From positions 1 to 64,000 of the IMG/VR virus record IMGVR_UViG_3300021963_000072: DNA of 64,000 nucleotides. The stretch is one strand, 5' to 3'. The translations under genes were made by a program, and so were the position numbers. This DNA comes from a virus. Each line of letters begins with the position of its first letter. Positions within the stretch are counted from its first letter, which is position 1. Positions 1,797 through 2,921 of the stretch are shown here, one piece after another. Under the pieces are notes generated by a model. It ran no database searches and was not told the DNA's origin. It saw only the letters and a program-made list of their open reading frames with translations.

Positions 1797-1868
1797 TGGG
1801 AAATGTCGGACTTGAACCAACGACTTACTGCGTGTAAAGCAGTCACTCTACCACTGAGTTAATCTCCC
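1797..1868 (-). tRNA. tRNA-Val(UAC)
   Basis: 72 nt. The acceptor stem GGGAGAT/ATTTCCC contains one G-U pair; the anticodon arm ACTGC-TTTACAC-GCAGT gives anticodon UAC; T-arm GGTTCAAGTCC. CCA is not encoded. Confidence 0.93.
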
Positions 1869-1872
1869 GAAC

Positions 1873-1905
1873 AGTGGTGAGTGTCCACCACTTGCACCAG
1901 ACACT
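1873..1905 (-). ncRNA. Candidate RNA pseudoknot just upstream of tRNA-Val
   Basis: On the minus strand, AGTGGTG (1892-1886) and CACCACT (1879-1873) form a perfect 7-bp hairpin with loop GACACT. The upstream hexamer AGTGTC (1905-1900), seven bases before the hairpin, is perfectly complementary to that whole loop. This is the geometry of an H-type pseudoknot. No open frame explains the stretch. The pairing is seen directly; folding and expression are inferred. It begins four bases upstream of the tRNA-Val 5' end. Confidence 0.4.
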
Positions 1906-1974
1906 TGATGCGATTTTCACCGTGTTAGAGGACGGCAAATAAAAGGTTTCCAGTAGCCTTTCTTATCTCCCATA

Positions 1975-2068
1975 AGGAAGATGTAGGTATCGAACCTACA
2001 AAGGATAGTCCCTTAAGGAACTACTGGGAATTCCACCCAGAACCAATATGAAAGAATCGAACATTTCC
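1975..2068 (-). pseudogene. Degenerate or non-canonical class II tRNA-like sequence
   Basis: On the minus strand there is a good T-arm (GTAGG-TTCGATA-CCTAC), a long variable-arm hairpin (GTTCC-TTAA-GGGAC) and a 5-bp arm with a 7-base loop (CTGGG-TGGAATT-CCCAG) in the anticodon-arm position. The anticodon loop lacks U33, the D-loop lacks the GG pair, and only four of seven acceptor pairs form (GGAAATG with ATCTTCC). It looks like a decayed Leu- or Ser-type tRNA, or a tRNA-like RNA with another role. Boundaries are approximate. Confidence 0.4.
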
Positions 2069-2079
2069 AACCCTTTCAA

Positions 2080-2152
2080 CTGGGGCGGCAGGGATCGAAC
2101 CTGCGACCTAGATGTTAACAGCATCCCGCTACTACCGCTGAGCTACACCCCA
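2080..2152 (-). tRNA. tRNA-Asn(GUU)
   Basis: 73 nt. Acceptor TGGGGTG/CGCCCCA with one G-U pair, anticodon loop CTGTTAA (anticodon GUU), T-arm GCAGG-TTCGATC-CCTGC. The D-stem has one imperfect pair. Its first 10 bases overlap the last codons and stop of the HNH endonuclease gene. Confidence 0.93.
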
Positions 2153-2445
2153 TTATGTTGTTCATGATGTATTTCTCGATGGCAGTTAGCACATACGAGA
2201 ATACATTTATCTGCTTCTGCCTTCTGCTTTTCAATGGCAACGGTGGTTCCAAGGTTTTTAGATTTTTTAGTTGTGGGATCGAGATGATGGAACTCTAAGG
2301 CAGAGATACATTTATCATATCCACAACGTTCACACTTACCACCTTTATATTCTACTAAAAGAAGTTTGTTTTTCTTACGTCTTTTAATGACACTTGCTTT
2401 GTTTGCTTCTTTACGATCAGAATACGTTCTATTTTCTTTAGGCAT
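2143..2445 (-). CDS. HNH endonuclease (homing type) inside the tRNA cluster
   Basis: 100 aa from Met at 2445. A basic N-terminal region is followed by an HNH fold: CERC at residues 38-41, the catalytic LEFHHLDP at 50-57, and CANCHREIHH at 85-94, so two zinc-binding Cys pairs bracket the His-rich core. Such stand-alone HNH genes are mobile and often sit beside tRNA genes. The frame extends to 2472, but a TATAAATA late promoter directly abuts that upstream ATG, so a transcript from it would begin after it; Met10 fits better. The 3' end overlaps tRNA-Asn by 10 bases. Nuclease family is clear; mobility is inferred. Confidence 0.8.
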   Translation of the reverse strand: MPKENRTYSDRKEANKASVIKRRKKNKLLLVEYKGGKCERCGYDKCISALEFHHLDPTTKKSKNLGTTVAIEKQKAEADKCILVCANCHREIHHEQHNGV

Positions 2446-2472
2446 TTGGCAGAAGTTTGATTGTTCTACCAT

Positions 2473-2480
2473 TATTTATA
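2473..2480 (-). promoter_or_regulatory. T4-type late promoter, HNH gene
   Basis: Exact TATAAATA on the minus strand, 28 bases upstream of the preferred HNH start at 2445. In T4-like phages this octamer is the whole late promoter, read by gp55 with gp33 and gp45. Confidence 0.6.
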
Positions 2481-2488
2481 AAATGTGT

Positions 2489-2617
2489 GGGTGGTGAGAT
2501 TCTGTCATACTCACAACTGGAAGGTCTCACTGACAACGTAATTATTCCAGCACTTTTAGGTTCCTTGGCATTGGATTCTGTAACTCTGGTCTCCCAGTTT
2601 TACAGCGGGCACCACCC
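2489..2617 (-). ncRNA. Candidate structured non-coding RNA between tRNA-Gly and the HNH gene
   Basis: A 250-base gap without a plausible gene contains strong complementarity on the minus strand. An 8-bp closing helix pairs GGGTGGTG (2617-2610) with CACCACCC (2496-2489). Inside is a two-part hairpin (2605-2578): CTGTAA pairs with TTACAG, enclosing CTGG-GAGA-CCAG with a GNRA tetraloop. A second 5-bp helix pairs TGTCA (2535-2531) with TGACA (2507-2503). Size and position resemble the two stable RNAs of unknown function (C and D) in the T4 tRNA cluster; homology is not claimed. Structure is read by eye. Confidence 0.45.
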
Positions 2618-2696
2618 CTACCTTACTATACAATATCCAGTGCTTGACCACATAGATTTTTCTGTCACACCCTTTGGAAATCCGTCGATCTCCAAG

Positions 2697-2892: not shown

Positions 2893-2921
2893 ATCATATC
2901 ACACATTGATAAGATTGTCAA
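2893..2921 (-). promoter_or_regulatory. Sigma-70 type promoter inside the tRNA cluster
   Basis: Minus strand: -35 TTGACA (2916-2921, exact consensus), 17-base spacer, -10 TATGAT (2893-2898). It lies just after tRNA-Ala and would give a second start for tRNA-Gly and everything downstream. The 150-base gap it sits in (2769-2922) contains no gene I can support. Confidence 0.65.

Follow-up and report, generated by a model that had tools for sequence, protein, structure and literature searches.

The tRNA region of phage T4 encodes RNAs C and D, two stable RNAs of unknown function; their genes are annotated as small stable RNAs of 119-139 nt, rnaD being separated from tRNA-Arg by 1 nt and rnaC beginning 6 nt after rnaD. 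GOLLD and ROOL RNAs, which are encoded by phages or prophages, are often found near tRNA islands, and GOLLD combines a conserved 3' part with a less conserved 5' part (PMC12286853). The manA RNA was described in 2010 from marine metagenomes and T4-like cyanophages as a likely cis-regulator (PMC2864571), and phage S-CREM1 carries a manA RNA in its tRNA cluster, between tRNA-Leu and tRNA-Asn (PMC9964418).

Here we analyse a tRNA array in a stretch of 64,000 nt (the window) taken from a 91-kb virus record of IMG/VR (IMGVR_UViG_3300021963_000072). The replication genes of the window are closest to those of Synechococcus phage S-SRM01 (76% identity, with 36% of a 24-kb query covered), followed by other T4-like Kyanoviridae, and the source of the window is a T4-like freshwater cyanophage. 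Read along the minus strand, the array consists of tRNA-Arg, tRNA-Ala, tRNA-Gly, gap 2, a small HNH ORF, tRNA-Asn, gap 1, tRNA-Val, an ORF and tRNA-Ser. The two gaps had been predicted, from the letters of the DNA only, to hold structured non-coding RNAs that might be counterparts of T4 RNAs C and D or form a new class. We find that they are two structured non-coding RNAs on the tRNA (minus) strand, and that these are unrelated to each other.

Results

Structured RNAs in two gaps of the tRNA array

The presence of structured non-coding RNAs inside this cyanophage tRNA cluster is borne out by the folds of both gaps, by a family match for gap 2 and by covariation in gap 1. Gap 1 (1869-2079) has a minimum free energy (MFE) of -74.3 kcal/mol, compared with a mean of -53.4 for shuffled sequences (z = -4.8), and gap 2 folds with z = -2.9; the region from tRNA-Ala to tRNA-Gly (2769-2900) gave no significant fold (z = -1.6). 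Two promoter-like sites are present (Table 1). The one that is TG-extended stands upstream of tRNA-Gly, manA, tRNA-Asn, the gap-1 RNA and tRNA-Val, and the gap-1 RNA is probably transcribed together with the tRNAs.

Table 1. Coordinates of the features of the tRNA array, in window positions
Feature	Position	Strand	Basis
Second strong promoter-like site, ahead of tRNA-Arg	3115-3087	-	11/12 consensus positions
Promoter-like site, TTGACA-17-TATGAT, TG-extended	2893-2921	-	11/12 consensus; consensus match only
manA RNA (RF01745), starts 1 nt after tRNA-Gly	2484-2694	-	cmscan, tRNA spacing
Small HNH-type homing endonuclease ORF	2143-2472	-	ORF; Pfam HNH E = 3e-4, just under cut-off
tRNA-Asn(GUU), 5' boundary of gap-1 RNA	2080-2152	-	ARAGORN
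Module A, 13-bp hairpin directly after tRNA-Asn	2049-2078	-	26 variants, compensatory pairs
Module B, five-helix domain (P1 closing; hairpins P2, P3, P4, P5)	1943-2046	-	21 sequences, CM
Within B: T-arm-like hairpin GUAGG-UUCGAUA-CCUAC (1999-1983), then spacerless 7-bp acceptor-like hairpin with UUAU loop (1982-1965)	1965-1999	-	
Module C1, 8-bp hairpin, conserved 8-nt loop CCUCUAAY	1916-1939	-	covariation
Module K, first kissing hairpin, loop AGUGUC (1905-1900)	1894-1911	-	covariation
Module K, second kissing hairpin, loop GACACU (1885-1880), ends 3 nt before tRNA-Val	1872-1893	-	covariation
tRNA-Val(UAC), 3' boundary of gap-1 RNA	1797-1868	-	ARAGORN

Gap 2 belongs to the manA family

Using cmscan with Rfam 15, we found that gap 2 matches RF01745 over the full length of the model (1-192) with 103.5 bits, above the gathering cut-off of 55.2. 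Gap 2 is hence a manA RNA, a known family, and the suggestion of a new RNA class fails for this gap. The sequence features on which the original prediction was built are nevertheless real: the 8-nt complementarity between 2617-2610 and 2496-2489 is present, as is the GNRA loop (GAGA), which belongs to a hairpin of the manA family consensus. What does not hold is the 8-bp closing helix drawn from this complementarity. Both the Rfam consensus and the MFE structure pair the strand 2496-2489 with a 5' GGGUGUG segment instead, so that the proposed helix is an alternative pairing.

Other known RNA families also occur in such tRNA arrays. We found the abiF RNA (RF03085) in L001 (2304-2340), L018 (1910-1946), L043 (697-733), L025 (408-444) and S-CREM1, and wcaG (RF01761) in the tRNA array of L018.

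Gap 1 holds a modular RNA ending in a kissing loop

Gap 1 holds a single RNA of about 210 nt, in which four modules, A, B, C1 and K, stand in a row (Table 1). In the window copy, the P1 helix that closes module B pairs 2044-2041 with 1948-1945, and it reaches up to 6 bp in relatives; the CM built on B (R2) places the module at 1940-2051 with 130.8 bits. The full pairing of the GACACU loop with an upstream AGUGUC hexamer, which had been noticed before, was confirmed. The pseudoknot geometry assigned to it was not: the hexamer forms the loop of another hairpin, and the two make up a kissing loop and not an H-type pseudoknot. Thus, the earlier description of the gap stands for the loop-hexamer pairing but did not include modules A, B and C1.

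Rfam 15 gave no match at E<=5 within 1869-2079, the GOLLD and ROOL family models included, and the homologous gaps in nine loci were likewise without an Rfam match; neither ARAGORN nor the Rfam tRNA models called a tRNA or tmRNA in gap 1. Direct blastn of the gap against cultured phages found nothing, and its relatives came to light after the gap was split into modules. With covariation in these homologous gaps (see below) and no counterpart in Rfam, the gap-1 RNA is an undescribed RNA class, as had been considered in the original prediction.

Several other roles for gap 1 or its parts were considered and rejected. Hairpin A was flagged as terminator-like, but the sequences downstream of it are varied and have no T-run in the variants. 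A leader of the downstream ORF (1755-1504) is separated from that ORF by tRNA-Val, and the self-complementary P2 loop GGAAUUCC is an implausible dimer interface, its palindrome being broken in variants.

Compensatory changes support all four modules

Compensatory changes were sought in homologous gaps, and they were found in A, B, C1 and K; all counts given for A, B and C1+K are uncorrected for phylogeny. For C1 and K together (23 distinct sequences), 97.5% of cells are paired and 10 of 27 pairs are compensatory, with a covariation score of 0.245 compared with at most 0.085 for slid structures. Broken down by helix, the C1 hairpin is 95.1% paired with 3/8 compensatory pairs, the first kissing hairpin of K is 100% paired (3/5) and the second is 98.3% paired (4/8). 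The 6-bp loop-loop helix is nearly invariant (97.7% paired), an invariance that is inflated, as many K loci were fetched by a pattern fixing part of K. Locus L387, which was fetched otherwise, has one mismatch in the kissing loops, and a U-U occurs in the kissing-loop helix in 3 of the 23 aligned variants.

Module B (21 distinct sequences) is 96.3% paired, with 6 compensatory pairs and a score of 0.122 compared with at most 0.087 for slid structures. Its closing helix P1 switches between GC, CG and UA, and covariation comes mainly from P1 and P3, whereas the T-arm-like and acceptor-like helices P4 and P5 hardly vary and are supported by conservation. In module A, 95.0% of cells are paired over 26 distinct variants, again with 6 compensatory pairs, while slid structures are 35-60% paired. 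On the tRNA strand the alignments contain 91 G-U cells and 6 C-A cells, which points to the tRNA strand as the RNA strand. Taken together, all four modules are backed by compensatory changes, and the structure of gap 1 is under selection.

The gap-1 RNA lies in tRNA arrays and exchanges its modules

Pattern scans of IMG/VR returned 99 stretches with the K core and 64 with the B core, and in loci fetched via the neighbouring HNH protein the interval from tRNA-Asn to the next tRNA is a mosaic. K lies between two tRNAs in 132 of 147 matches and has a tRNA on one side within range in the other 15; no tRNA was found on the opposite strand within 3 kb of any of the 147. The tRNA upstream of the K gap is tRNA-Asn in 64 of the 67 distinct gaps, and on the downstream side a Val, Thr or Leu tRNA or an aberrant tRNA-like element was called. 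Where K is the last module, its core ends 10, 11 or 12 nt before the next tRNA in 52 of 53 gaps. The 67 gaps comprise 23 module orders: A comes first and K late, B, E, F, G, H or I are exchanged between them, and D and the tRNA-like element may follow K.

The CM built on C1+K (R1) found one copy per genome in the six genomes with matches, and we therefore dismissed a dispersed repeat; a host-derived RNA was rejected because the exact K pattern is absent from 84,980 cellular genomes. Among named phages, K was found only in the cultured S-SRM01, where the layout is the same; the gap there measures 207 nt and lies between tRNA-Asn and tRNA-Thr (about 184351-184558 of MW015081). Excerpts of the paper on this phage list the flanking tRNAs and pass over the gap (PMC8557907). 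Many freshwater relatives have the RNA at the corresponding site. Two marine relatives have an empty site, with tRNA-Asn and tRNA-Val 4 nt apart in S-SM2 and 3 nt apart in Bellamy. S-PM2 carries A, F and a C1-like hairpin in which an identical CCUCUAAC loop sits on a different stem.

Further structured elements were observed in these intervals. Module D (GUAGGUGCCAAA...CACCUACC, ~95 nt) is an undescribed structured RNA between tRNAs (25 variants, 98.4% paired, 11/22 pairs compensatory), found at L048 (1443-1549), L001, L005, L023, L025, L187 and other loci. Insert domains between hairpin A and C1/K include H (L086, L115, L125, L137, L150), I (L082, L101, L138, L151) and G (L088, L161), which have few variants and some of which are closed by long helices. 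In the tRNA-Asn/tRNA-Thr interval of L164, the C1 loop is inverted (ATTAGAGG vs CCTCTAAT) while its stem is intact, which looks like a flip of the hairpin DNA.

Module B resembles joined tRNA pieces

An apparent second copy of B in genome G002 proved to be the junction between neighbouring tRNA-Ser and tRNA-Ile genes, and this identity provided a lead to a tRNA origin of B. The R2 model scores the tRNA-Ser(gct)/tRNA-Ile(gat) junction of this related phage with 31.6 bits (E = 7e-6), and blastn aligns positions 53-90 of B to it with 79% identity over 38 nt. There is thus a moderate case, by sequence likeness, that B looks like the part of a long-variable-arm tRNA from the anticodon to the 3' end, fused with the 5' portion of the following tRNA, and B now looks like a domain that folds on its own. 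A match of B to Bacteriophage Eos covered merely a 25-nt T-arm and was ignored.

In L183, L184, L194, L209 and L226, B directly follows an apparent ORF whose frame seems to enter B and stop in the P3 loop. Another RNA has the shape of a tRNA and an anticodon loop of 5 nt, GACAA; its 58 loci comprise 19 variants, with 5 compensatory pairs, and include S-PM2 (L083, 3110-3182), L050, L183 and L192. ARAGORN calls it His(atg), Leu(caa) or ???, and it is probably not a decoding tRNA.

Discussion

In tRNA operons generally, each tRNA is cleaved at its 5' side by RNase P, and its 3' end is trimmed by trailer nucleases. We consider it about 70% probable that the array carries a manA RNA together with a modular gap-1 RNA that is released by tRNA processing and acts in trans. 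According to this model, the tRNA array would be transcribed through, and 3' processing of tRNA-Asn together with RNase P cleavage before tRNA-Val would set the gap-1 RNA free as a separate molecule that has hairpin A at its 5' end and the compact kissing-loop domain K at its 3' end. The free RNA would then act in trans during infection, A and K serving as constant ends and the variable modules, some of them tRNA-derived, as the putative working part. The weakest step concerns the role itself, which may be an accessory one directed at the host: the RNA might, for instance, bind or divert a host protein that processes RNA or targets tRNAs. The absence of the RNA from marine relatives argues against a need for it in tRNA maturation, and the fast swapping of modules and their tRNA-like parts would suit an accessory, host-directed role.

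We were wondering whether the modules might instead be structured spacers of the tRNA precursor, which guide or insulate cleavage by RNase P, RNase Z or RNase E and are then degraded, with no role as free RNA. The modules are indeed flush with tRNA ends, A following a tRNA 3' end and K ending a few nucleotides before the next tRNA, yet for marine relatives a spacing of 3-4 nt suffices to process this tRNA pair, spacers reach up to 313 nt with elaborate, sequence-conserved domains, and processing alone would need no conserved loops such as CCUCUAAY; we regard this explanation as quite unlikely. Far less probable still, and very unlikely, is that the gap-1 RNA, or at least module B, represents tRNA decay, with recombined pieces of tRNA-Ser and tRNA-Ile that fold by chance. 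The likeness of B to the Ser/Ile junction speaks for it, but A, C1 and K do not resemble tRNAs, and B, with compensatory changes in its closing helix and a mean column identity of 91% over the 21 variants, is under constraint. A tRNA origin of B is therefore likely and decay is not, which suggests that tRNA pieces may be recycled into new structured RNAs.

For gap 2 the competing explanation is an ordinary 5' leader, a candidate riboswitch controlling the HNH endonuclease whose ORF starts 12 nt downstream of manA. Such a role agrees with the cis-regulatory classification of the family in Rfam, and most manA copies in the fetched loci do not stand beside tRNAs, a tRNA being present within 30 nt in 18 of 128 (the window is counted twice, as L081). 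In 17 of these 18 copies, however, the spacing to the tRNA is -2 to +6 nt, and in S-CREM1, RN05-S, S-H68, L063 and L155 manA is flush on both sides, with no protein gene in the intervals. In S-CREM1 it runs straight into tRNA-Asn without an HNH gene, and in the other four it fills the tRNA-tRNA interval with spacings of -1 to +3 nt; conversely, the HNH gene occurs without manA in L001 and similar loci. Since the window HNH gene sits exactly between manA and tRNA-Asn, which touch each other in S-CREM1, and since this gene occurs elsewhere without manA, it is best read as an insertion and not as the gene that manA evolved to control. A leader role of the gap-2 RNA appears unlikely. The tRNA-flush copies, a subset of manA, do not fit a pure leader role and put the status of such manA RNAs as cis-regulators in question. 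The HNH ORF was also seen to overlap the 5' end of tRNA-Asn by 10 nt (2143-2152), and the HNH/tRNA-Asn overlap in S-WAM2 is identical.

Returning to a released, trans-acting RNA, two reports document phage tRNAs that evade tRNA-targeting defences (PMC10264068, PMC11555353), and by analogy a decoy role of the gap-1 RNA is conceivable, no more. A wider version, which we think is quite unlikely as a whole, would have the tRNA arrays of freshwater T4-like cyanophages serve as a rack of interchangeable structured RNAs, some made from tRNA pieces (B and the GACAA-loop element), which tRNA-processing enzymes excise. As decoys or inhibitors, these RNAs would counter host defences that target tRNAs, or host enzymes that process RNA, and some manA RNAs would behave likewise and not be riboswitches.

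How do the two RNAs compare with described systems? For gap 2, T4-like cyanophages are known carriers of manA and the RNA fits the full-length model. Typical marine copies score 152-197 bits, above the window copy, and lie mostly away from tRNAs, whereas the window copy is flush with the tRNA before it, and a leader role is not obvious in that place. The order of elements in module B (T-arm, acceptor-like 3' strand, short loop, acceptor-like 5' strand; read from sequence) is like that of circularly permuted tRNAs and two-piece tmRNA, but B has no ARAGORN call, CCA, tag peptide or usable anticodon arm. Like many GOLLD and ROOL RNAs, the gap-1 RNA is a phage RNA close to tRNA genes, and like GOLLD it is better conserved in its 3' part than in its 5' part, while GOLLD often exceeds 800 nt and gap-1-type RNAs measure ~70-310 nt.

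The proposed kinship with T4 RNAs C and D stands for the layout. In both cases the RNA is encoded by a T4-like phage on the tRNA strand and immediately beside a tRNA, although RNAs C and D lie at the cluster end and the gap-1 RNA between two tRNAs. It does not stand for homology: R1 and R2 found no match in T4 (AF158101), under stricter filters with which weak matches could be missed. Gap 1 as a single counterpart of RNA C or D was rejected on this ground, and 'counterpart' here means similar position only. The gap-1 RNA is a new structured RNA that would belong to a known general type, the stable RNAs of phage tRNA clusters, and its modular build is unusual. Occupying the same kind of position as T4 RNAs C and D, the gap-1 system offers natural variants by the dozen, exchanged modules, relatives with an empty site and a cultured pair, S-SRM01 and freshwater Synechococcus (KCZYC6), so that the role of tRNA-cluster RNAs becomes testable.
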